Part shown: piece after piece, positions 40,352 through 51,340 of the stretch
Position numbering within the stretch: position 1 is the first letter of the stretch
Layout: each line of letters opens with the position of its first letter
DNA from: Xanthomonas euvesicatoria pv. euvesicatoria
Lineage (GTDB): Bacteria > Pseudomonadota > Gammaproteobacteria > Xanthomonadales > Xanthomonadaceae
Length of the DNA: 64,000 bases
NCBI RefSeq assembly: GCF_020880415.1
Contig: NZ_JAJIUJ010000119.1
Location: forward strand, 248,001 to 312,000
Reading direction: 5' to 3'
Notes under the pieces: model-generated
Told to the model about the DNA's origin: nothing
Databases searched by the model: none
The model's input: only the letters and a program-made list of their open reading frames with translations
Program-made: the position numbers and the translations under genes

Positions 40352-40430
40352 TTACAGCATTGATAAAACTGCTTTGTCAAATAGTTGTATCGGGCGCACG
40401 GTGCAGGTCCGGATGCACAAGGACTCCCAC

Positions 40431-42047
40431 ATGGCTGCCACCGCGTTTGCTCCCCGTCCCACCGACCACGCCACGCCCGGCATTGCGCTGACCACCCAGA
40501 TCGCCGGCCAGGCGGAGCTGCTGCCGGCCGCTGCGCTGGCCCTGCTGGTTTCGCTGCACCGGGCGATCGAGCCCGGCCGCCAGCAGCGTCTGGCCCAGCG
40601 GCGCCAGCGCCAGGCCGCTTTCGATGCCGGTCAGCTGCCGGACTTCCGTACCGATACCCAGGCCATCCGCGCCGGCGATTGGCGCGTGGCTCCCCTGCCG
40701 GCGGCACTGCAGGACCGCCGTGTCGAAATCACCGGCCCGACCGACCCGAAGATGGTCATCAACGCGCTGAACTCCGGCGCCAAGGTGTTCATGGCCGACT
40801 TCGAAGATTCCACCGCGCCGACCTGGCGCAACCTGCTGGCCGGCCAGCGCACCCTGGCTGCGGCGGTGCGCGGTGACCTCAGCTTCGATGCGCCCAACGG
40901 CAAGCACTACGCCCTGCGCCCGGAGGCCGAACGTGCAGTGCTGATCGTGCGCCCGCGCGGCTGGCACCTGGACGAAAAGCACGTGTTGATCGACGGCCAG
41001 CCGCTGGCCGGCGGCCTGTTCGATGCGGCGCTGTTTGCCTTCCACAATGGCCGTGCGTTGCTGGCCAAGGACCGCGGCCCGTACCTGTACCTGCCCAAGC
41101 TGCAGAGCATGGAAGAAGCCGCCCTGTGGGACACCGCGCTGGCGCATATCGAAGCGATGCTGGGCCTGCCGCATGGGCAGATCAAGGTCACCGTGCTGAT
41201 CGAAACGCTGCCGGCGGTGTTCGAGATGGACGAAATTCTCCACGCGCTGCGCGAGCGCATCGTGGGCCTGAACTGCGGGCGTTGGGACTATATCTTTTCC
41301 TACCTGAAAACCTTTCGTGCGCACCGCGACCGCGTGCTGCCCGAACGCGGCCAGGTCACCATGACCCAGCCATTTTTGAAGGCCTATTCGGAGCTGTTGA
41401 TCAAGACCTGCCATCGCCGCGGTGCGCATGCGATGGGCGGCATGGCCGCGCAGATTCCGATCAATCACGATGAAGCCGCCAACGAACAGGCCATGGCCCG
41501 CGTGCGTGCCGACAAGTTGCGCGAAGTGACCGCCGGCCACGATGGCACCTGGGTGGCGCATCCGGCGCTGATTCCGGTGGCGATGAAACTGTTCGACGAA
41601 CACATGCCCACCGCGCATCAGCAGCATGTAGTGCGCAATGACGTGCAGGTGACGCGCGACATGTTGATCGCGCCCTCGCCGGGCAATGTCACCCGCGCCG
41701 GGTTCGAAGGCAATGTCGAAGTGTGCGTGCGCTATCTGGCGGCCTGGCTGGACGGCAATGGCTGCGTGCCGATCCACCACCTGATGGAAGACGCCGCCAC
41801 GGCCGAAATCAGCCGCGCGCAGCTGTGGCAATGGTTGCATCACGGCCAGCACCTGGATGATGGCACCGCCATCGATCAACACTTGCTGCAGGCCACCTTG
41901 CGCGCACTGCCTGCACGGCTGGGAACCGCCACCGCGCTGCCCGGCGCTGCACGGATCGATGAAGCGATCGCCTTACTCGAAGAGTTGAGCCGCGCCGACG
42001 AACTGGCGGACTTCCTTACCGTACCGGCGTACCGCCTTATCGATTGA
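40431..42047 (+). CDS. aceB: Malate synthase A
   Basis: Condenses glyoxylate with acetyl-CoA to malate in the glyoxylate shunt. The 538-residue length matches MSA (533 in E. coli), not the longer malate synthase G. Motifs include the N-terminal RRVEITGPTDPKMVINALNSGAKVFMADFEDSTAPTW, the acetyl-CoA/glyoxylate site VTVLIETLPAVFEMDEIL..GLNCGRWDYIFSYLKTF, and GGMAAQIPI. An AAGGA ribosome site seven bases upstream supports the ATG at 40431 over 40413. It is followed after 159 bases by isocitrate lyase on the same strand and shares its terminator. Confidence 0.97.
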   Translation: MAATAFAPRPTDHATPGIALTTQIAGQAELLPAAALALLVSLHRAIEPGRQQRLAQRRQRQAAFDAGQLPDFRTDTQAIRAGDWRVAPLPAALQDRRVEITGPTDPKMVINALNSGAKVFMADFEDSTAPTWRNLLAGQRTLAAAVRGDLSFDAPNGKHYALRPEAERAVLIVRPRGWHLDEKHVLIDGQPLAGGLFDAALFAFHNGRALLAKDRGPYLYLPKLQSMEEAALWDTALAHIEAMLGLPHGQIKVTVLIETLPAVFEMDEILHALRERIVGLNCGRWDYIFSYLKTFRAHRDRVLPERGQVTMTQPFLKAYSELLIKTCHRRGAHAMGGMAAQIPINHDEAANEQAMARVRADKLREVTAGHDGTWVAHPALIPVAMKLFDEHMPTAHQQHVVRNDVQVTRDMLIAPSPGNVTRAGFEGNVEVCVRYLAAWLDGNGCVPIHHLMEDAATAEISRAQLWQWLHHGQHLDDGTAIDQHLLQATLRALPARLGTATALPGAARIDEAIALLEELSRADELADFLTVPAYRLID

Positions 42048-42206
42048 TTTCACCCTGCGGAGACGCCTGCCACCGGCGTCGCGCAGGCTCCACTTCAACG
42101 CATTCCAACGCCCGTTGCGCACGCACGCGCAACGACGGCCTTGCCATGCCGCATGCCCACCATTCCTTCCTCGTTCCATCCGTCGTACCTCTCAGGAGAA
42201 CGCAAG

Positions 42207-43502
42207 ATGAGCACCACACTGCAAAGCGCCGAACAACTGCAGCAGGACTGGTCCAACAACCCGCGCTGGAGCGGCATCACCCGCAATTACAGCGCTGCCG
42301 ATGTGGTGCGCCTGCGTGGCACCGTGCATGTCGAGCACTCGCTGGCGCGGTTGGGCGCGGAAAAATTGTGGACCTCATTGCATGCCACGCCGTTCGTCAA
42401 TGCGCTGGGCGCATTGACCGGCAACCAGGCCATGCAGCAGGTCAAGGCCGGCTTGAAGGCGATTTACCTGAGCGGCTGGCAGGTTGCCGCCGACGCCAAT
42501 CTGGCCGGGCAGATGTATCCGGACCAATCGCTGTACCCGGCCGATTCGGTGCCGGCGGTGGTCAAGCGCATCAACAACACCTTGCTGCGCGCCGACCAGT
42601 TGCACCATGCCGAAGGCAACGATGCCATCGACTTCCTGCAGCCGATCGTGGCCGACGCCGAAGCCGGTTTCGGTGGCGTGCTCAACGCCTTCGAACTGAT
42701 GAAGGCGATGATCGAAGCCGGCGCGGCTGGCGTGCACTTCGAAGACCAACTGGCCTCGGTCAAGAAGTGCGGCCACATGGGCGGCAAGGTGCTGGTGCCC
42801 ACGCGTGAGGCGATCGAAAAATTGAATGCCGCGCGCCTGGCTGCCGACGTGCTGGGCGTGCCGACGGTGCTGATCGCACGCACCGACGCCGAAGCCGCCG
42901 ACCTGATCACCAGCGACGTGGATGCCAACGACCAACCGTTCACCACCGGGCAGCGCACGGTCGAAGGCTTCTTTAAGACCCGCAATGGCCTGGACCAGGC
43001 GATCAGCCGCGGCTTGGCCTATGCCCCGTACGCCGACCTGATCTGGTGCGAAACCGGCAAGCCGGACCTGGAATTTGCGCGTGCGTTTGCGCAGGCCATC
43101 CATGCCAGGTTCCCCGGCAAATTGCTGGCCTACAACTGCTCGCCGAGTTTCAATTGGAAGAAGAATCTGGACGATGCCACCATCGCCAAATTCCAGACCG
43201 AACTGGCGAGCTATGGCTACAAGTTCCAGTTCATCACCCTGGCTGGCTTCCACGCCTTGAACTACGGCATGTTCCATCTGGCGCACGGCTATGCGCGCCG
43301 GCAGATGAGTGCGTTCGTCGAATTGCAGCAGGCCGAGTTCGAAGCGGCGGAGAGGGGATTTACCGCAGTCAAGCACCAGCGCGAAGTAGGCACCGGCTAT
43401 TTCGATGCAGTGACGCAGGCGATCCAGCAGGGGCAATCGTCCACCACCGCCTTGCGTGGCTCCACCGAAGAAGCGCAATTCCATAGCGACAAGGCGGCCT
43501 GA
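42207..43502 (+). CDS. aceA: Isocitrate lyase
   Basis: Splits isocitrate into succinate and glyoxylate. The 431-residue protein shows [36 protein letters not shown], the catalytic loop [11 protein letters not shown] with the essential Cys, [10 protein letters not shown], and the C-terminal [13 protein letters not shown]. An AGGAG ribosome site precedes the ATG at 42207. It completes the glyoxylate shunt with aceB; no isocitrate dehydrogenase kinase (aceK) is present in the window. A strong terminator follows about 150 bases after the stop. Confidence 0.98.
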
Positions 43503-43801: not shown

Positions 43802-44860
43802 ATGACGTGCCACAACACCGCAGGCGCACTCGAGCCGACAGGGAACGTTGCCAAAACGGTCCCCGATGGGCTGCATGCGCTGATGACTGCCGAGGAACTG
43901 GCGTTTTTCGCCCGTTTCGGCCGTTCGCGTGAGGTGTCCGCGGGCCAGTCGCTGTTCGAGCGCGGTGCGGTGGGCACGCAGATGTACATCGTTGTCAGCG
44001 GCCAGATCGACCTGGATTTCGGCGAGGACCTGATGCTCAAGCATCTGGGCCCGGGAGAATTCTTCGGCGAGCTCGGCCTGCTGATCGGCGATCACGCGCG
44101 CAGCGCCGGCGCCAGCGCCTCCACCGACAGCCGTCTGATCGAGCTGGCACACGAGGATTTCCAGCGTCTGGTCGACCAGGACCCCTCGGTGGTGGCGCAC
44201 TTCCTGCGCCGCTCCATCGTGCGGGTGGTCAACAACGAACAATTGCTGATCCGCCAGCTGCGCCGCCGCAACCACGATCTGGAAGCGGCGCTGGACAACC
44301 TCTACGTCACCTCGCACCAGCTCAACCACACCGAAGAACTGAGCCGGACCGACGAGCTCACCGGCCTGCACAACCGGCGCGGGCTGGCGTTGCACCTGCA
44401 GGAATGCCGGCGGGCCGGCCACGTGCCGGGTGTGGGCCTGATCCTGATCGACTGCGACCGTTTCAAGCGCATCAACGACGAGTTCGGTCACCTGGCAGGC
44501 GACCGCGTGCTGCAGAACGTGGCGCATGCCCTGCGTTCAGTGATCGCCGAAGGCGACCTGGCCTGCCGTCTCGGCGGCGACGAATTCTGCGTGCTCGTCG
44601 CACAAGGCACCAGCGAGCTGGTGCACCACATCGGCGAATGCATCGTGCGCGCGGTGGAAGCGCGGCTGTGCAACGGCCAGGGCGAACAAGGCTGCTCGGT
44701 CAGCGTAGGCTCGTGCATGATCGACGCGGACGCGGCCTGGAACGACTGGTACACGCTCGCCGACAGCGCCTTGTACCAGGCCAAGCGGCAGGGCGGCAAT
44801 GTGCTGTGCATGCAGGAGACGCTGGCCCTGGATCAACCGCCTGCCACCGGTCACCGCTGA
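43802..44860 (+). CDS. Cyclic-nucleotide-binding diguanylate cyclase (cNMP-GGDEF)
   Basis: A 352-residue soluble signalling protein. An N-terminal cyclic-nucleotide-binding domain (about 25-150; GPGEFFGELGLLIGDHARSAGASA is the phosphate-binding cassette) is joined by a helical linker (VVNNEQLLIRQLRRRNHDLEAALDNLY) to a GGDEF domain (about 175-335) with an intact RLGGDEFCV signature. It should therefore make cyclic di-GMP. The matching X. campestris protein, recalled as XC_0249, was reported to bind cGMP and respond with increased cyclic di-GMP output. The next gene, three bases downstream, encodes the nucleotide cyclase, so signal source and receptor are co-expressed. No I-site RxxD is obvious before GGDEF. 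Confidence 0.93.
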   Translation: MTCHNTAGALEPTGNVAKTVPDGLHALMTAEELAFFARFGRSREVSAGQSLFERGAVGTQMYIVVSGQIDLDFGEDLMLKHLGPGEFFGELGLLIGDHARSAGASASTDSRLIELAHEDFQRLVDQDPSVVAHFLRRSIVRVVNNEQLLIRQLRRRNHDLEAALDNLYVTSHQLNHTEELSRTDELTGLHNRRGLALHLQECRRAGHVPGVGLILIDCDRFKRINDEFGHLAGDRVLQNVAHALRSVIAEGDLACRLGGDEFCVLVAQGTSELVHHIGECIVRAVEARLCNGQGEQGCSVSVGSCMIDADAAWNDWYTLADSALYQAKRQGGNVLCMQETLALDQPPATGHR

Positions 44861-44863
44861 GCG

Positions 44864-47377
44864 ATGAGCAGCCGCACCCACGCACGCAAGTACGCGTCGT
44901 CGGAAGCGATCCAGGCGCCGCGGCTGCGCACCTTGCTGTTGACCGATCTCTGCGATTCGACCGCGCTGGTCGAACGTATCGGCGACAACGCCGCGGCCGC
45001 CTTGTTCCGCGAGCACGACCGCCTGGTGGTCAAGCTGCAGCAGCACTGGCGCGGCCGCCTGATCGATCGTTCCGACGGGCTGCTGCTGCTGTTCGACCGC
45101 CCCATCGATGGCCTGGGTTTCGCGCTGGATTACGCGCGCGGGCTCAAGACGATGGGCGATGCGCATGCGCTCACGCTCTGCGCACGCCAGGGCCTGCATG
45201 TGGGCGAAGTGCTGACCTGGCGCAATAGCGACGAAGCGATCAGCATCGGCGCCAAGCCGCTGGAAGTCGAAGGGCTGGCCAAGCCCACCGCCGCACGCCT
45301 GATGTCGATGGCACGGCCGGGGCAGATCTTGCTCTCGGCGGTGGCCGAGTCGTTGACCCATCGCGCCGCACGCGAACTCGGAAACCGGGCCGACCGGTTA
45401 TTGTGGAAATCGCACGGGCGCTGGCGCTTCAAAGGCATGCCCACCGCGATGGAGATCTACGAAGTCGGCGAAGTCGGCCTGACTCCCCTGCGCATGCCGA
45501 AGAATTCGGCAAAAGCCTGGCGCGATGTGCCGCTGTGGCGCAGGCCGGCCGCGTTGGTGGCTGAGGTGGGGGTGGTGCTGGGGATTGGTTTCGCAATCTG
45601 GCTCTTTGCACGGCCGCAACCAGCGCTCGCGTTTGCAGAACGCGACTGGGTGGTTGTCGGGACGGTCCGCAACCTCACCAATGACGTGATGCTGGACGGA
45701 GCACTCGATCAGGCATTTCGGATCAGCCTGGAGCAGTCGCGATACGTCAACGTTCTCAGTGAAGACAGAACACTGAAACTGTTAGCACTGATGCGCAAAG
45801 ATCCCACCAAAGATCCGCTGGACCGCAAGAACGCGTCGGATGTCGCATTACGCACCGGTGCGAGAGCGGTGTTACTTCCTTCCGTGGGTTACGTTGGGGG
45901 GCGCACACGTTTCGTCGTGGAAGTGGTCGACCCGAAAACTCAGCAGACTGTTGCTGTAAGTACCGCATTCGGCTCAAATCCGTCGATTCTTTCTGCTGTT
46001 GATACAGTGACGGGCGAACTGAGGACGCAGCTCGGCGAAAACCGTGACAGTATTCGACAAAACAGTCCTGCCTTGCCGGATGTCACCACATCTAGTCTCG
46101 ATGCGTTGCGCGCTTATGCATTGGGACAACAACGATACTCGGAAGGGAAATACGGTGCTGCTTTGGATTTCTTCCAGAAAGCAGTCGATATCGATCCGCA
46201 CTTTGCGCTGGCCTGGCTTGGTCAAGTGCGCGCCCATTTTGCCAATGTCGATTACAAGAAGGCGACCGAAACGCTTAGGGTTGCTGAGCAATTCAAGTCC
46301 AGGCTCCCCCCGCGCGAGGCGCTTTACGTAAAAAGCTGGGGCGTGCAGATTCTCGATCCAGCGCAGGCGGCCGATTTCTGGATACAGATGGCGGAGTTGT
46401 ATCCCGACTATGCACCTGCCCAAGCGAACGCAGCGATGGACTTGTTCGTCGCTAATCGGTTCGCTGACGCTCTGCCGTACGCGCGTGCTTCGGCGCAGGG
46501 GAAGTACGATCTTTCCAGCGTATCGCTCGATATGTATGGGCGTATCTTGCTGGCTCTTGGTCAATACGACCAAGCCGATCAGGCAGTGAGAAAGGCGGTC
46601 GGATCAGGATGGAATGGCGCGCTGCTGCGTCAGGCTGCTGTCGCGGCTGCGAAGCGTGACTACTCGGGCGCACGCGATGCGCTTGCTCGAGTCGACAAGA
46701 CGAATTTCCATGCCGATATCACGCGAACCACTATCGCTCTTGATGAAGGGGATCTGCACGCGGCGGTCGCGCATGCCCAAGTCGGACTGAGCGCAGGATT
46801 GAACAGGAGAGGAACTGATCGGATCAACTATTACGTCCCGCTAGCAACTGCGTTGCTTGCCTCCGGGCAGCGACCAAAAGCCGCGGAGGTCGCCGAAGAG
46901 GGGGCAAGGTTGGCATTGCGGGATTTAGGCGCAGATGTCCCAATCGATAGGATCGACAACCTGTCCACCGCATTGGCTGCCGCGCTCATCATGGCCCGCA
47001 CCGGCGATACCCAAGGTGCCGCTAGGGTCCGGCAGCAGGTCAAGGTGGCGCCACTGGCCTACGCCAACCGCTTGGTGGTGGAACTGGGTGCGGTTGTCGA
47101 TGCGGAAATTCTATTAGCCGAGCAGCGGCCAGACGATGCATTCCGCATGCTCAGTCCCTATCTGGATTCGATGTCGCGATTTCAGACAAGGGCAACCGCA
47201 ATGCGCGCTGCCCAACTTGGACAGCGTAACGCAGATGCGCGGATTCAACACGACTGGATCCGCCAGCATCGAGGTTTGGCTTACGCGGAGATCGAATGCG
47301 GATACTGTCTGCAGCCGCTCAATCTGGTGGATCTTAGAACAGCAGAAGATTCGTGGATAGCAGAGACGCAGGGGTGA
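44864..47377 (+). CDS. Membrane class III nucleotide cyclase with TPR C-terminal half (peptide-modification-system type)
   Basis: An 837-residue protein. A cytoplasmic class III cyclase domain (about 18-200) has both metal aspartates (LLTDLCDST and RSDGLLLLF). A single membrane helix lies near 229-250 (AEVGVVLGIGFAIWLFA). An alpha/beta domain (about 258-400) and TPR-like repeats follow (420-830; QQRYSEGKYGAALDFFQKAVDIDPHFALAW is clear). The usual lysine position before the second Asp reads Ile, and the Asn of the N-x-x-x-R pair reads Pro, so activity should not be taken for granted. The X. campestris counterpart, recalled as XC_0250, was reported to make cGMP. It also fits the family NCBI names putative peptide modification system cyclase (TIGR04510, from memory). 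GC content falls just after the membrane helix. Confidence 0.88.
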   Translation: MSSRTHARKYASSEAIQAPRLRTLLLTDLCDSTALVERIGDNAAAALFREHDRLVVKLQQHWRGRLIDRSDGLLLLFDRPIDGLGFALDYARGLKTMGDAHALTLCARQGLHVGEVLTWRNSDEAISIGAKPLEVEGLAKPTAARLMSMARPGQILLSAVAESLTHRAARELGNRADRLLWKSHGRWRFKGMPTAMEIYEVGEVGLTPLRMPKNSAKAWRDVPLWRRPAALVAEVGVVLGIGFAIWLFARPQPALAFAERDWVVVGTVRNLTNDVMLDGALDQAFRISLEQSRYVNVLSEDRTLKLLALMRKDPTKDPLDRKNASDVALRTGARAVLLPSVGYVGGRTRFVVEVVDPKTQQTVAVSTAFGSNPSILSAVDTVTGELRTQLGENRDSIRQNSPALPDVTTSSLDALRAYALGQQRYSEGKYGAALDFFQKAVDIDPHFALAWLGQVRAHFANVDYKKATETLRVAEQFKSRLPPREALYVKSWGVQILDPAQAADFWIQMAELYPDYAPAQANAAMDLFVANRFADALPYARASAQGKYDLSSVSLDMYGRILLALGQYDQADQAVRKAVGSGWNGALLRQAAVAAAKRDYSGARDALARVDKTNFHADITRTTIALDEGDLHAAVAHAQVGLSAGLNRRGTDRINYYVPLATALLASGQRPKAAEVAEEGARLALRDLGADVPIDRIDNLSTALAAALIMARTGDTQGAARVRQQVKVAPLAYANRLVVELGAVVDAEILLAEQRPDDAFRMLSPYLDSMSRFQTRATAMRAAQLGQRNADARIQHDWIRQHRGLAYAEIECGYCLQPLNLVDLRTAEDSWIAETQG

Positions 47378-47404
47378 ACCTGCAGCGTGCCAAAAAGCTG
47401 TCCT

Positions 47405-47710
47405 TTATTTGAGCGTCCTATCGCCGTTGTAACCGGCATCCAGCTGAGGGACGATGTGTGAGGTCCCAGACGTCAGCATGGTGTTGATCTGCTCACGCGC
47501 ACCTGCGATTACATCCTTATCTGCCAACTGGATATTGCATGCGCAATCGCGAACGAATGCCTCGATGTCGTCGCCAGGTGCGGCGATGTGCCCAACCTGT
47601 CGTAGTGCCTCTAATGTGTCTGAGACGAATAATGCACGAAAGGCATCATCGGTAGACAGTAGATCGATCAGGTTGCTTGCAACAGCAGGTTCAAGCTTCA
47701 GCATTGGCAT
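47405..47710 (-). CDS. Putative modified (RiPP-like) precursor peptide with NHLP/Nif11-like leader
   Basis: A 101-residue small protein, convergent with the cyclase gene and divergent from the dehydrogenase gene. The N-terminal half looks like a leader of the nitrile-hydratase/Nif11 kind: NLIDLLSTDDAFRALF followed by DTLEALRQVGH. The middle has a Cys pair (RDCACN). The C-terminus (LTSGTSHIVPQLDAGYNGD) is the part that would be processed or modified if this is a RiPP. It matches the family NCBI calls putative modified peptide (TIGR04509, from memory). I use the ATG at 47710; a second ATG at 47704 and an upstream GTG at 47740 are alternatives. No modification has been shown. Confidence 0.72.
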   Translation of the reverse strand: MPMLKLEPAVASNLIDLLSTDDAFRALFVSDTLEALRQVGHIAAPGDDIEAFVRDCACNIQLADKDVIAGAREQINTMLTSGTSHIVPQLDAGYNGDRTLK

Positions 47711-47865
47711 CGCTGGCACTTCAGTGGGATGAAGTAACACATAGCGGCTCTAACGGGGCTGGCTTGAGCGGCATCACGCATTGGCTCAAGTTAGGCAACG
47801 GCGGGGCGTTATCCCTGGAGCAGAAATATCTGCACACGGTGTACCTCAGATCGCTGGAGAAGATG
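47711..47865. promoter_or_regulatory. Divergent region between peptide and dehydrogenase genes
   Basis: About 155 bases that must hold both divergent promoters. The dehydrogenase frame stays open throughout this stretch and beyond, so translation could start earlier than assigned. I see no clean -35/-10 pair. The GGAGAAG just before 47863/47866 is the best ribosome site for the dehydrogenase. Confidence 0.4.
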
Positions 47866-49026
47866 ATGCTGGTCAAGCGTTGCGCAATTGTCGTGCTGGA
47901 GCCACGTGAGACCGTGTCTTACACATTGGACAGTCTTCTACGAGGCGGCAATGGGCTGGACCATTCGATGCAGTGGTTTGCGCTCGCGCCGCATCTCGAT
48001 GCCCCGGTGGCCGTGTCAGAAGCTCAGCGGGCGTTGCTGGGTGAGCTTAGTCCCTCGCACTGGACGACCCGCTTGCCATACGAGAGTGAAGCGCTTGACG
48101 GCTTGATCGCGCAGGGCCTGGTGCTGGAGGAACAAACGCAAGGCAGCAGGTTTGCTAAAGCCGATTCGCGTCTGAGGGCCTCGCACTGGCATCCGCTTGC
48201 CGCGGTGCTGCACGCATTTACGCGATGGGATGGGGTAGATGCGGTCAAGAACACCCGGGATTCTGGCACCGATACAGCGGTGGCAATGCGGCGTGTCTTG
48301 GGGCCTGCGCCTCCGGAAGTGTTGCCGGCAAATGACCGTCGAACACTCATCGGCCTGCCGCCCATGGTCGCAAACGATTTCGATGACCTGCTGGGACGGC
48401 GTGTCACTTGTCGTAATTTCGATCAGAGCAGACCCGTTCCTCTACCGACGTTCGCCCACATGTTGCAGCGGGTGTTCGCTGCTCATGCCAAGGTAAAGGT
48501 GGGCGATGACCTGGTTTTTCTTAAAAAGAATGTGCCTTCCGGTGGTGGCTTGCATCCTATCGAGGCATACATTTTGGTGAGGAACGTCCAAGATCTGGAA
48601 TCTGGCGTCTACCACTATCGTGCAGATAGTCACGCCTTAGAGCGTATGTCAGGTCTTGAGTGCTCCGATGACTTCGTCATGCAGGCTGTAGGACAGCAAC
48701 ACTGGTTCGCAGACGCGCATGTACTGGTTGCCTTGGTGCCGGGCTTTGATCGAACCTTCTGGAAATACAGGCAGCATGCCAAAGGGTATCGCGTGGTTGC
48801 GTTGGAAGCCGGGCACTTGTCGCAGACGCTGTATCTGGCGGCAACCGACCTCGGTTTGGGGGCGTTTATCACCGGTGCGGTGAACGAAAAACATCTTGAG
48901 CGCGCGCTTGGTTTGGACCCGACTTCGCAAGGCGTTCTCGCCGTATGCGGCTTTGGCTGGCGCGCCACGACCATGGTGACGGCAGAGCTGGATCCTATGG
49001 GTGCGATTTGGTCCGCAGCGACTTGA
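47866..49026 (+). CDS. SagB-like nitroreductase-fold peptide maturation dehydrogenase
   Basis: About 386 residues from the ATG at 47866 (the ATG at 47863 or an earlier non-ATG start are possible). An N-terminal domain of about 140 residues (VLEPRETVSYTLDSLLRGG) precedes a SagB-type FMN nitroreductase fold: DDLLGRRVTCRNFDQSRPVPL, NVPSGGGLHPIEAYILVRNV, GVYHYRADSHALERM, and ALEAGHLSQTLYLAATDLGLGAFITGAV. SagB proteins oxidise azolines to azoles in RiPPs, but no YcaO cyclodehydratase is present. It fits the family NCBI names putative peptide maturation dehydrogenase (TIGR04511, from memory). Composition is about 52% GC in sampled lines, below the window average. Confidence 0.82.
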   Translation: MLVKRCAIVVLEPRETVSYTLDSLLRGGNGLDHSMQWFALAPHLDAPVAVSEAQRALLGELSPSHWTTRLPYESEALDGLIAQGLVLEEQTQGSRFAKADSRLRASHWHPLAAVLHAFTRWDGVDAVKNTRDSGTDTAVAMRRVLGPAPPEVLPANDRRTLIGLPPMVANDFDDLLGRRVTCRNFDQSRPVPLPTFAHMLQRVFAAHAKVKVGDDLVFLKKNVPSGGGLHPIEAYILVRNVQDLESGVYHYRADSHALERMSGLECSDDFVMQAVGQQHWFADAHVLVALVPGFDRTFWKYRQHAKGYRVVALEAGHLSQTLYLAATDLGLGAFITGAVNEKHLERALGLDPTSQGVLAVCGFGWRATTMVTAELDPMGAIWSAAT

Positions 49027-49197
49027 GACGTATCGGACAATCGCGTGAGGTCAGTTTGCTCGCTTTCTCGCTATGTCCGAGCGTGTGCCGTTGACGTATT
49101 GGTAGCTGCCCTTGATACACCCGGTTTACCCGCCGGTATCTGGCGCCGCTTACTGACAATCCGAGCCGCGCTCCGGTGTTTCGTAGCACCTGCGAAG

Positions 49198-49228
49198 GCC
49201 GACGGCAGAGTGCCGTCGGCTTTCGTTT
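49198..49228 (+). terminator. Terminator between the dehydrogenase and S9 peptidase genes
   Basis: Perfect 9-bp stem GCCGACGGC/GCCGTCGGC with an AGAGT loop, followed by TTTCGTTT on the plus strand. On the minus strand it is followed by TTCG, so it may serve both convergent genes. Confidence 0.8.
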
Positions 49229-49255
49229 CCCGGCTAAAGCAAGTCACGCGCAGGC

Positions 49256-51340
49256 TTACTTCCGAATCGCCTGCGTATGCGTCTTCAAGGCCTCGCTCAG
49301 GCCGTTGATCTTGTCGGCGCCTTCCGGGACGGTGATGCTGGAGCCTTCCAGGTCCGCACCGATCGGTTGCACGCGGCCGCCCAGGCACTGGCTCAGGAAG
49401 CTTTCGGTCACGGCGTTGAAGGCCTTGCTGTTTTCCGGGCGGCGGAAGCCGTGGCCTTCGTCGGGGAACAGCACGTAGGTGACCGGAATGTTCTTGGCCT
49501 TCATTGCGTTGACGATCTGGTCGCTTTCGGCCTGCTTGACGCGCGGGTCGTTGGCGCCCTGGCCGATCAACAGCGGCTTGCTGATCTTGTCGACATGGGT
49601 CAGCGGAGAACGGTCGGTCAGCCACTGCTTGCCGGCTTCGGTGGCGGGGTCGCCCATGCGCCGGGTCAGCTGCTTGTAGAAGCTGGCCCAGTAGGGCGGC
49701 ACGGTGCCGAGCAAGGTGTTGAGATTGGCCGGGCCCACGATATCCACGCCGCATTTGAAGGCGTCCGGGGTAAACGTCATGCCGACCAGCGTGGCATAGC
49801 CGCCGTAGCTGCCGCCCATGATGGCGACCTCGTCCGGTTTGGTGACGCCTTGCTTGACCGCCCATTGCACCGCGTCGAGCAGGTCCTCGTGCATCTTGCC
49901 GGCCCACTCGCCATTGCCGGCGTTGGTGAATGCCTTGCCGAACCCGGTGGAGCCACGGAAGTTCACCGACAACACCGCATAGCCGCGGTTGGCCAACCAT
50001 TGTTCGTACGGCCCGTAGCCGTAGCTGTCGCGCGCCCACGGGCCGCCGTGCACGAACAGCACCAACGGCACCGGCTTGTCGGCCTTGCCGTCGTGGTTGG
50101 CATCGGCTTCGGCCGGCAGGGTGAGGTAGCTGATCAGCTTGAGGCCGTCGCGTGCGGTCAGCTCCTGTGGCCACATCGGCACCAGCGGCTTGCCCTCCAG
50201 TGCGGGCCGTGCGGAGAACAGCTTGGTCAGCTTGCCGCCATCGGCGCGATCGTAGCGGTAGTACGTGAGCGGGGTTTCTGCCGCGGAATAGCCCACGATC
50301 CAGATGCGGTCGTCGAGCGTGCGCGCGGCCACGCTGGCATCGCCGCCGCCAAGGGATTTGAGTTTCTGCAGATCCGCGGCAATGCCGTTGTCCAGCGGCT
50401 TCCATTCTTCGCGCAGGTAGTCGGTGGACACCGCCTGCACCGCCCCGGTCTTGGGGTCATTCAAGGTGGCGCCGACGTCGGCGCGCGGGTTTTCGAACAG
50501 CAGCGTGCGTGTATTGCTGGCCGTGTCGATGGCATACAGCGCTGCAGTGTCGCGGTTGCGCGAATCCTGCATGTACAGCGTCTTGCCATCCTCGGTCAGG
50601 CCCTCCGGCGCGGTATTGGTGACGTCCTCGAACGGAATGCGGTCCACGCTCTTCCAGCGGTTGCCATCGGGCACCAGCAACTCCCTGCCGGCATCGTCTG
50701 TCGCGCGCGTGGCGTAGCGCAGCTGGTAGTCGCCATCGAGCAGGTACGCATCCAGGCTGTCGGTGTTCTTCTGCACCAGCGTGCGCTTGCCGGAGGCCAG
50801 GTCCACGCGGTACAGGTCGTGCCACTTGGCATCGCGGTCGTTCATGCCGACCATGATCGATTCGGGATGTTGTGCGCTGACCCGATACACCTCGGCATTG
50901 GTCTTCTTGAACGGAGTGAGATCCTTGCTGCTGCCGTCAGCCAAATTGACCGAAAACAGGTGGAAATCTTCATCGCCGCCGTTGTCGCGCAGATACAGCA
51001 AGGTATTGGGTTGGTAGGTCCAGAAGTAATTGCGAATGCCGCGTGCGGTGTCCTTGGTGATCGCACGCGCCTGGTCGGGCGCATCCACCGGCGCAACCCA
51101 GACATTGAGCACGCCCGCCAACGGCGCCACCCAGCTGAGGTACTTGCCGTCCGGACTGATGCTGACATTGGCCCGCTCGGGATTGCCGAACAGCGCATCG
51201 CGGGTGATCAGCGCAGGCGGCGCTGCGGGCGCTGCTGCCGCCGGTGCAGGTGCTGCCGCTTTCTCGGGAGCGGGCGCAGGTTTGTCGCTGCACGCAGACA
51301 GCGCGAGCAGCATGCTGGAAACAAGAAGCAGGCGTTGCAT
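49256..51340 (-). CDS. S9-family prolyl oligopeptidase-like lipoprotein
   Basis: A 694-residue serine peptidase of the acylaminoacyl-peptidase/DPP type. A lipoprotein signal with LSAC (Cys17) is followed by an Ala/Pro-rich spacer, a beta-propeller (SPDGKYLSWVAPLAG, WTYQPNTLLYLRDNGGDEDFHLF and similar blades), and a C-terminal alpha/beta-hydrolase domain. The domain has FVHGGPWARDSYGY, the nucleophile Ser511 in GGSYGGY, the acid near GANDPRV and the His in DEGHGFRRPEN. It probably cleaves peptides in the envelope. It stands alone on the minus strand and is convergent with the peptide-maturation dehydrogenase; a role in that system is only a guess. Confidence 0.92.
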   Translation of the reverse strand: MQRLLLVSSMLLALSACSDKPAPAPEKAAAPAPAAAAPAAPPALITRDALFGNPERANVSISPDGKYLSWVAPLAGVLNVWVAPVDAPDQARAITKDTARGIRNYFWTYQPNTLLYLRDNGGDEDFHLFSVNLADGSSKDLTPFKKTNAEVYRVSAQHPESIMVGMNDRDAKWHDLYRVDLASGKRTLVQKNTDSLDAYLLDGDYQLRYATRATDDAGRELLVPDGNRWKSVDRIPFEDVTNTAPEGLTEDGKTLYMQDSRNRDTAALYAIDTASNTRTLLFENPRADVGATLNDPKTGAVQAVSTDYLREEWKPLDNGIAADLQKLKSLGGGDASVAARTLDDRIWIVGYSAAETPLTYYRYDRADGGKLTKLFSARPALEGKPLVPMWPQELTARDGLKLISYLTLPAEADANHDGKADKPVPLVLFVHGGPWARDSYGYGPYEQWLANRGYAVLSVNFRGSTGFGKAFTNAGNGEWAGKMHEDLLDAVQWAVKQGVTKPDEVAIMGGSYGGYATLVGMTFTPDAFKCGVDIVGPANLNTLLGTVPPYWASFYKQLTRRMGDPATEAGKQWLTDRSPLTHVDKISKPLLIGQGANDPRVKQAESDQIVNAMKAKNIPVTYVLFPDEGHGFRRPENSKAFNAVTESFLSQCLGGRVQPIGADLEGSSITVPEGADKINGLSEALKTHTQAIRK

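Follow-up and report, generated by a model that had tools for sequence, protein, structure and literature searches.

What is a membrane nucleotide cyclase doing beside the genes for a small leader peptide and a SagB-related dehydrogenase? The question is raised by a locus in a 64,000-nucleotide stretch of Xanthomonas euvesicatoria pv. euvesicatoria (contig NZ_JAJIUJ010000119.1, positions 248,001 to 312,000; the whole stretch is called the window below). Comparison with related loci gave a result that is invisible from a single sequence: the sensor half of the cyclase, the peptide and the dehydrogenase are exchanged as one block, whilst the catalytic half of the cyclase and the neighbouring cyclic-GMP receptor stay in place. 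We read the module as an exchangeable input of the Xanthomonas cyclic-GMP pathway, similar to a peptide-pheromone (pherotype) system but read by a receptor guanylate cyclase, and give this reading a probability of roughly 60%. The peptide would then be the ligand of the sensor half, as the co-exchange of the two suggests.

The initial annotation described a unit of three genes, and all three are real. Each was matched by its NCBIfam model far above the cut-off: the cyclase gene (44864-47377, plus strand) by TIGR04510 with 1237 bits (cut-off 400), the peptide gene (47405-47710, minus strand) by TIGR04509 with 109 bits (cut-off 34) and the dehydrogenase gene (ending at 49026, plus strand) by TIGR04511 with 537 bits (cut-off 240). 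The dehydrogenase probably starts at the ATG at 47863 rather than at the TTG at 47677, because the TIGR04511 match begins at residue 66 of the longer frame. The peptide gene is convergent with the cyclase gene and divergent from the dehydrogenase gene. The three-gene unit was nevertheless incomplete, since it omitted the cyclic-GMP-receptor gene at 43802-44860, which lies upstream of the cyclase gene with 3 bases between the two and encodes a cyclic-nucleotide-binding domain and a GGDEF domain by Pfam. The parts of the locus are as follows (TPR, tetratricopeptide repeat; cNMP, cyclic nucleoside monophosphate; dN/dS, ratio of non-synonymous to synonymous divergence).

43802..44860, plus strand: putative cyclic-GMP receptor/diguanylate cyclase (cNMP-binding and GGDEF domains), XC_0249-like, constant output (PF00027, PF00990; PDB 5h5o; 7/7 contact residues).
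44864..45541, plus strand: predicted cytoplasmic guanylate-cyclase half, residues 1-226, XC_0250-like, constant output (6/6 XC_0250 residues).
45542..47377, plus strand: predicted membrane helix (about residues 229-250), middle part and TPR sensor half, exchangeable (TIGR04510, Pfam TPR, hydropathy peak, breakpoint at about residue 226).
47405..47710, minus strand: putative precursor peptide of 101 amino acids with an NHLP-related leader (TIGR04509; dN/dS 0.08-0.10 within type).
47408..47479, minus strand: type-specific C-terminal peptide core, residues 78-101, a split of our own (core identity tracks sensor type).
47711..47862, no strand: divergent intergenic stretch between peptide and dehydrogenase (gene layout).
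47863..49026, plus strand: predicted SagB-related flavin dehydrogenase, exchangeable (TIGR04511; W300-K301-Y302 invariant in 68/68).
45542..49254, no strand: the whole exchanged block (gap between matching flanks in DNA comparison with congeners; edges taken in L108/L087).

The exchange is seen at the DNA level between two loci of the window's congeners, L108 and L087. Between the two, identity is 100% for the catalytic domains and 99.7% for the receptors, but 23% for the TPR parts, 32% for the dehydrogenases and 4% for the peptide cores. The flanking DNA matches at 97% over 5.5 kb and at 99% over 4.7 kb, and blastn gave no match in the 3.6 kb between these flanks. Scored in 30-base windows, identity is at least 97% up to L108:5350, which corresponds to about cyclase residue 227 and the start of the predicted helix, and is at least 97% again from L108:9091; the exchanged block thus begins at the membrane helix of the cyclase. 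For L108, the closest counterparts of its TPR part (46%), dehydrogenase (51%) and peptide (57%) are found in L109, from another genus. The window locus has a like gap against L087 and L084, and against L085 on the left side only (the L085 contig ends); compared with L121, its two outputs are 96 and 98% identical, its TPR part 33% and its dehydrogenase 46%. The pattern recurs in another genus (L109 against L031: catalytic part 97%, TPR part 25%) and also in a third, where the output is less conserved (L110 against L048: 83% and 23%).

Traces consistent with such replacement remain at two loci. In L174 (8756-10585) and L179 (9004-10854) a second sensor half, without a catalytic domain, lies directly after the dehydrogenase gene and matches the model from position 217-218 onward. 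The orphans share 48-51% identity with the sensors of L037, L172, L043 and L178, which belong to the same genus, against 32-33% with the sensor of their own locus. Each looks like a former sensor left behind on the arrival of a new cassette. Base composition also differs between the two sides of the breakpoint: G+C is 53-58% in the window's sensor, peptide and dehydrogenase parts against 66-67% in its output parts, and the sensor is lower in G+C than the catalytic part in 103 of 121 modules.

For pair statistics we took, from the 148 loci, the 121 that have a single full cyclase, a single dehydrogenase, a single receptor and at least one peptide; where a locus had several peptides only the best-scoring one was compared, and for L078, whose dehydrogenase is split, only the larger piece. 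Outputs are conserved (catalytic part at least 88%, receptor at least 85%) in 326 of the 7260 pairs, which are not independent because they are drawn from 64 shared loci. TPR identity within them is bimodal, lying below 45% in 209 pairs, at 60% or more in 115 and between these values in 2. The low class has mean identities of 46% for the dehydrogenase and 36% for the peptide with 93% for the receptor, and the high class 84%, 80% and 94%, respectively. Over all pairs, the partial rank correlations given both output parts were 0.60 for TPR and dehydrogenase, 0.48 for TPR and peptide (a value reached by 0 of 500 label permutations) and 0.52 for dehydrogenase and peptide; that of the catalytic part with the dehydrogenase, given receptor and TPR, was 0.16.

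At a threshold of 55% identity the 121 modules fall into 76 sensor types. The 26 modules of the window's genus form six of these, with 13, 6, 4, 1, 1 and 1 members, and every one of the six has a peptide type and a core of its own. By named records, type 1 occurs in X. arboricola pathovars juglandis and guizotiae and in strain CFBP 7645, type 2 in X. arboricola NL_P126, and type 3, the window's own, in X. arboricola pv. populi and X. euroxanthea. When the tree of the output proteins is labelled with the six types, 10 changes are required, where the minimum possible is 5 and shuffled labels averaged 12.1 (as low in 5 of 200 shuffles); well supported branches of this tree force at least 3 changes for each of the three larger types. 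In all six within-type pairs, the synonymous divergence of the peptide and dehydrogenase genes exceeded that of the receptor gene (narrowly for one peptide), as expected if the types predate, or move between, species.

The constant side of the module can be placed in a known pathway. According to the available parts of PMC3770947 (EMBO J 2013), XC_0250 of X. campestris combines a class III guanylate cyclase with a TPR part, and XC_0249, to which it is linked, is a diguanylate cyclase activated by cyclic GMP; the TPR part is called uncharacterised in role there and, in 2019, in the available parts of PMC8042644. The window cyclase has D41, D71, L73, A150, L157 and A161 of XC_0250 at the same numbers (6/6), and the window receptor has the XC_0249 contacts F73, E90, L91, H98, V142, N145 and E146, also at the same numbers (7/7). 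Because all 13 residues named in the paper are identical, we assign the window cyclase to the XC_0250/XC_0249 pathway; judged by these residues, the 'peptide modification system cyclase' of the TIGR04510 name is the guanylate cyclase of that pathway. The initial annotation was therefore right to call it a nucleotide cyclase rather than a peptide cyclase, but its statement that the function is undescribed does not hold for a cyclase that matches the characterised XC_0250 and adjoins a receptor gene. The upstream protein aligns in its first domain with the diguanylate cyclase PDB 5h5o (E 2.1e-73), and the closest named relative of the protein, in X. phaseoli, is 99% identical (records from the window's own genome were possibly omitted).

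These residues are also widely kept. In the 88 aligned cyclases of a first locus set, D28, D71, A143, L146 and A150 never vary, and 87 of the cyclases have D41, 83 have A161, 71 have L157 and 60 have L73; all of 81 aligned receptors share F73, E90, H98, E146 and the GGDEF motif, and 68 have N145. XC_0250 of strain 8004 was not included in the locus set. A dead cyclase had been suspected, as the protein matches no cyclase model of Pfam and has other residues in place of the usual Asn and Arg, and was ruled out because XC_0250 carries the same replacements and is active according to the available text of PMC3770947.

The peptide carries an NHLP-type leader; in general architecture, this N-terminal leader is well conserved, a further conserved segment follows, and the tail is variable. 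It is conserved at the protein level, as the initial annotation supposed: dN/dS was 0.08-0.10 in three pairs of the window's type and 0.07-0.25 in three pairs of other types. Within the window's type the tail is the more constant end, 93% of the last 27 aligned residues being invariant against 75% of the first 40; the corresponding values are 74 against 70% in type 2, and reversed, at 52 against 60%, in type 1. Between types, core identity follows the sensor. None of the 7024 pairs with TPR identity below 45% had cores at least 75% identical, whilst the 117 pairs with TPR identity of at least 65% had a median core identity of 83%. In 11 pairs in which the dehydrogenase was retained (at least 80%) and the TPR part changed (below 55%), the leaders were on average 71% and the cores 42% identical; in 83 pairs with both retained, leaders were 81% and cores 84% identical, although the first group is the more divergent throughout as well (receptor 84 against 95%). 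The pattern fits, without proving, a division in which the dehydrogenase reads the leader and the sensor reads the core.

The nearest solved relatives of the dehydrogenase are the nitroreductase-type 3eo7 and the SagB-type enzymes CyaGox (5lq4 and 8pz5), BmdC (7ly4) and McbC (6gos). All 68 aligned dehydrogenases have W300, K301 and Y302 (numbering from 47863), which align with the same letters in CyaGox; in McbC a Lys-Tyr pair is catalytic. The enzyme thus looks intact. Azoles are nevertheless unlikely as its general product, because YcaO is mostly absent and because of the composition of the cores. The initial annotation had reported no YcaO nearby, and in fact none exceeds the cut-off anywhere in the window's own genome; YcaO exceeds it in 9 of the 91 genomes with the dehydrogenase and not in the other 82. 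Among 107 distinct cores, counted in the first set of 88 loci plus the window, 76 have no Cys and 3 have neither Cys, Ser nor Thr; the window core contains Ser and Thr and lacks Cys. An azole peptide made with a distant YcaO, which we also considered, is not supported by these figures. Our guess, by analogy, is that the dehydrogenase acts on a carbon-carbon bond. Such a bond is dehydrogenated by the albonoursin oxidase, a member of the same superfamily. Redox cofactors such as pyrroloquinoline quinone (PQQ) are made from precursor peptides, and this role was ruled out by reasoning, as such a core would be constant and here it is type-specific.

The module has a fixed chromosomal place. It adjoins the glyoxylate-shunt genes for malate synthase and isocitrate lyase (40374-43502 in the window), as is so in 109 and 102 of the 148 loci, respectively. 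Pfam scanning of the neighbours showed a LysR regulator, these two enzymes, the cNMP-GGDEF protein, an S9 peptidase and two genes of methylcrotonyl-CoA-carboxylase type, and scanning among the 25 neighbour clusters that recur most often in the 148 loci (rough gene calls) added a Mg-chelatase/ComM-type ATPase, a P-II protein, a BMFP protein, a cation/proton exchanger and a gene of spermidine-synthase type. The earlier remark that no enzyme for ribosomally synthesised and post-translationally modified peptides (RiPPs), exporter or protease lies nearby was thus correct for RiPP enzymes and exporters among the scanned neighbours but not strictly so for proteases, as the S9 (prolyl-oligopeptidase-family) gene lies at 49256-51340 on the minus strand; its cluster recurs in 37 of 148 loci from 7 genera. 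C39 domains occur in 64 of 89 module genomes against 25 of 54 genomes without any of the three families, and the window's own genome has three C39 matches, all unlinked to the module. A C39 exporter as constant partner is not supported by these counts, nor by the module-bearing congeners G017 and G118, which have none.

A scan of 47300-47900 for promoters and terminators found nothing. CRP/Clp-like sites with at most 2 mismatches occur in 12 of 105 peptide-dehydrogenase stretches against 4.2 in mononucleotide shuffles, a weak excess with relatedness uncontrolled that was not used; the same stretches contain some recurrent 7-mers, with relatedness again uncontrolled.

The distribution was determined in an even draw of 149 genomes from the window's family. 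Matches above the cut-off were obtained for the dehydrogenase in 91 and for the cyclase and the peptide in 93 each, and all three families are present in 89 of the 95 genomes that have any (those with some but not all are G007, G011, G024, G054, G120 and G126). Within the window's genus the dehydrogenase is found in 28 of 35 genomes. The peptide is over the cut-off in 82 of 299 genomes of the order, some of them outside the window's family, and the dehydrogenase in 8 of 398 genomes of the phylum, all 8 in the window's order. The co-occurrence that the initial annotation took from NCBI family names therefore holds well beyond close relatives, in other families of the order, but as sampled it ends with the order. 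Dehydrogenase relatives of 150-169 bits, below the cut-off, were seen in other orders and classes (G547:C41, G470:C6, G490:C1 and G540:C38).

Of the 95 genomes, 87 were fetched (G007, G023, G024, G030, G120, G126, G136 and G141 were left out). The 148 loci compared were selected because a match had already been found there. All four genes are present in 124 loci, only the receptor is absent in 13, and other or more genes are absent in 11. The commonest gene order is receptor, cyclase, peptide (on the opposite strand) and dehydrogenase; a second layout has dehydrogenase and peptide on one strand (for example L106, L108-L111 and L114). Some loci are arrays without a receptor gene: L072:5726-7608 has five near-identical peptide genes in a row, and L093 and L095 have multi-copy cassettes with several peptides and dehydrogenases. 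Decayed or interrupted modules occur in the window's genus (L143/L180, L141/L142 and L144); in X. phaseoli the cyclase, peptide and dehydrogenase are all in pieces, G155 has dehydrogenase halves about 13 kb apart, and G172 has module pieces only.

The mechanism that we propose has five steps. In the first, the SagB-related flavin dehydrogenase would recognise the NHLP-type leader of the precursor of about 100 residues, bind it there and oxidise something within the type-specific core. The product might then reach the periplasm, where the TPR sensor half of the membrane cyclase may recognise the peptide of its own type, as the co-exchange suggests. The cytoplasmic half would respond by making cyclic GMP, an activity demonstrated for XC_0250 (PMC3770947, available parts), whose residues are identical here. 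Cyclic GMP would bind the neighbouring cNMP-GGDEF protein and cyclic di-GMP would rise, affecting biofilm formation and host interaction, as demonstrated for XC_0249 in the same source. Because the sensor half, peptide and dehydrogenase are replaced together whilst the parts for the last two steps stay, different signal types would be plugged into one constant output.

Several observations weigh against this mechanism. The main confounder is linkage: the exchanged block is contiguous, so co-variation of its parts may reflect linkage alone. Linkage can yield even the finer pattern within the peptide, as the core adjoins the sensor and the leader adjoins the dehydrogenase; with the chromosome order sensor, core, leader, dehydrogenase, a crossover inside the peptide gene gives the same result. 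The finer partial correlations are near equal (TPR-core 0.24, TPR-leader 0.20, dehydrogenase-leader 0.24, dehydrogenase-core 0.19), and 4 of the 117 pairs with like sensors have cores less than 50% identical. The conserved-output pairs come largely from the window's genus (276 of 326, and 177 of the 209 low-TPR pairs), although low pairs occur in seven other genera too. L117 has receptor and cyclase with no detectable peptide or dehydrogenase, and the dehydrogenase of X. vasicola L184 is only a 62-bit N-terminal fragment. No peptide exporter was found among the scanned clusters of the 25 commonest neighbours, and two congeners carry the module with no C39 domain at all. Finally, the XC_0250 catalytic domain restores biofilm without the sensor half, according to the available parts of PMC3770947.

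The confounder can be put as an explanation in its own right, in which the block is a recombination hotspot under diversifying selection for some other reason (a phage or toxin might target the sensor half, for example) and the peptide is not bound by the sensor. The contiguity of the genes, the conserved stretches flanking the breakpoint, which can act as crossover sites, and the failure of the partial correlations to separate core from leader would all follow. We consider it unlikely, and the foremost of the alternatives: the three families stay together in nearly all genomes that have any of them, the left edge separates sensor from output rather than cutting into the output, and in the 11 pairs described above the sensor and core were exchanged separately with the dehydrogenase retained.

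Co-exchange of peptide and receptor would be expected equally if the peptide were a RiPP antimicrobial that regulates itself, a bacteriocin sensed by its own receptor cyclase with the types reflecting competition between strains. Nisin, which is sensed by NisK, is such a case, and the NHLP-type leader and the diversity of types are in keeping with it. This comes next in order and is improbable too, in that no linked immunity, exporter or protease family appears among the 25 commonest neighbour clusters, C39 is no constant partner, and a fixed single-copy place in most of the family resembles core signalling more. Least probable, and very unlikely, is an intracellular regulator, a peptide that, modified or not, remains in the cell and directly controls the cyclase or the dehydrogenase. 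No signal peptide was seen, no exporter is linked and the dehydrogenase is cytoplasmic by family; the part that co-varies with the peptide, however, lies beyond the predicted membrane helix, a topology that is itself a prediction.

A pheromone-like, exchangeable input thus remains our preferred reading. Its broader form is a bacterial peptide-receptor guanylate cyclase, in which a modified, type-specific peptide would raise cyclic GMP and in turn cyclic di-GMP through interchangeable ligand-receptor cassettes in most sampled genera of one family; to this we give even odds. The animal natriuretic-peptide receptors would be its analogue, and we know of no bacterial example. In searches of an open-access library, no paper was found that joins the cassette with cyclic GMP or describes the exchange. 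The Xanthomonas cyclic-GMP pathway controls biofilm formation and virulence. Here cyclic-GMP signalling is joined to a peptide cassette, and the joint exchange suggests a modified peptide as a concrete candidate signal for this pathway, together with its maturation enzyme. If true, this would add a receptor class and a YcaO-free maturation chemistry to peptide communication, in as many types as were counted above.

The module shares features with several known systems. The NHLP-leader RiPPs have its leader, but no dedicated C39-type exporter is linked here, and the YcaO that defines the azole peptides known as TOMMs (thiazole/oxazole-modified microcins) is missing from the window's genome; judged by YcaO, the module is no TOMM. 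The azoline dehydrogenases SagB, McbC and CyaGox are of the same family by sequence, with the WKY motif kept, and differ in the company they keep, given the 82 of 91 genomes without YcaO and the 76 of 107 cores without Cys. The NCBIfam cassette TIGR04509/TIGR04510/TIGR04511 is clearly the same set of genes; its names speak of a peptide modification system, whereas here the cyclase is assigned as a guanylate cyclase with its receptor and the cassette is exchangeable. The XC_0250/XC_0249 pathway has the same order of the gene pair and the same catalytic and ligand residues at the same numbers, and the peptide, the dehydrogenase and the exchange of the sensor half go unmentioned in the available parts of PMC3770947.

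For the exchange itself, the closest parallels come from Gram-positive quorum sensing. In agr of Staphylococcus the genes for peptide, modifying enzyme and receptor are adjacent and co-vary between close relatives, and in ComP of Bacillus only the sensor half varies. The enzyme, peptide and receptor genes of ComQXPA are likewise polymorphic between close strains of Bacillus (PMC4408185, available parts). The Xanthomonas module resembles both in its adjacent peptide, modifying-enzyme and receptor genes that co-vary among close relatives, here with a conserved output. Where those systems have a histidine kinase as receptor, this one has a membrane guanylate cyclase; a SagB-related dehydrogenase takes the place of ComQ or AgrB, the host is Gram-negative and the system is known here from sequence alone.

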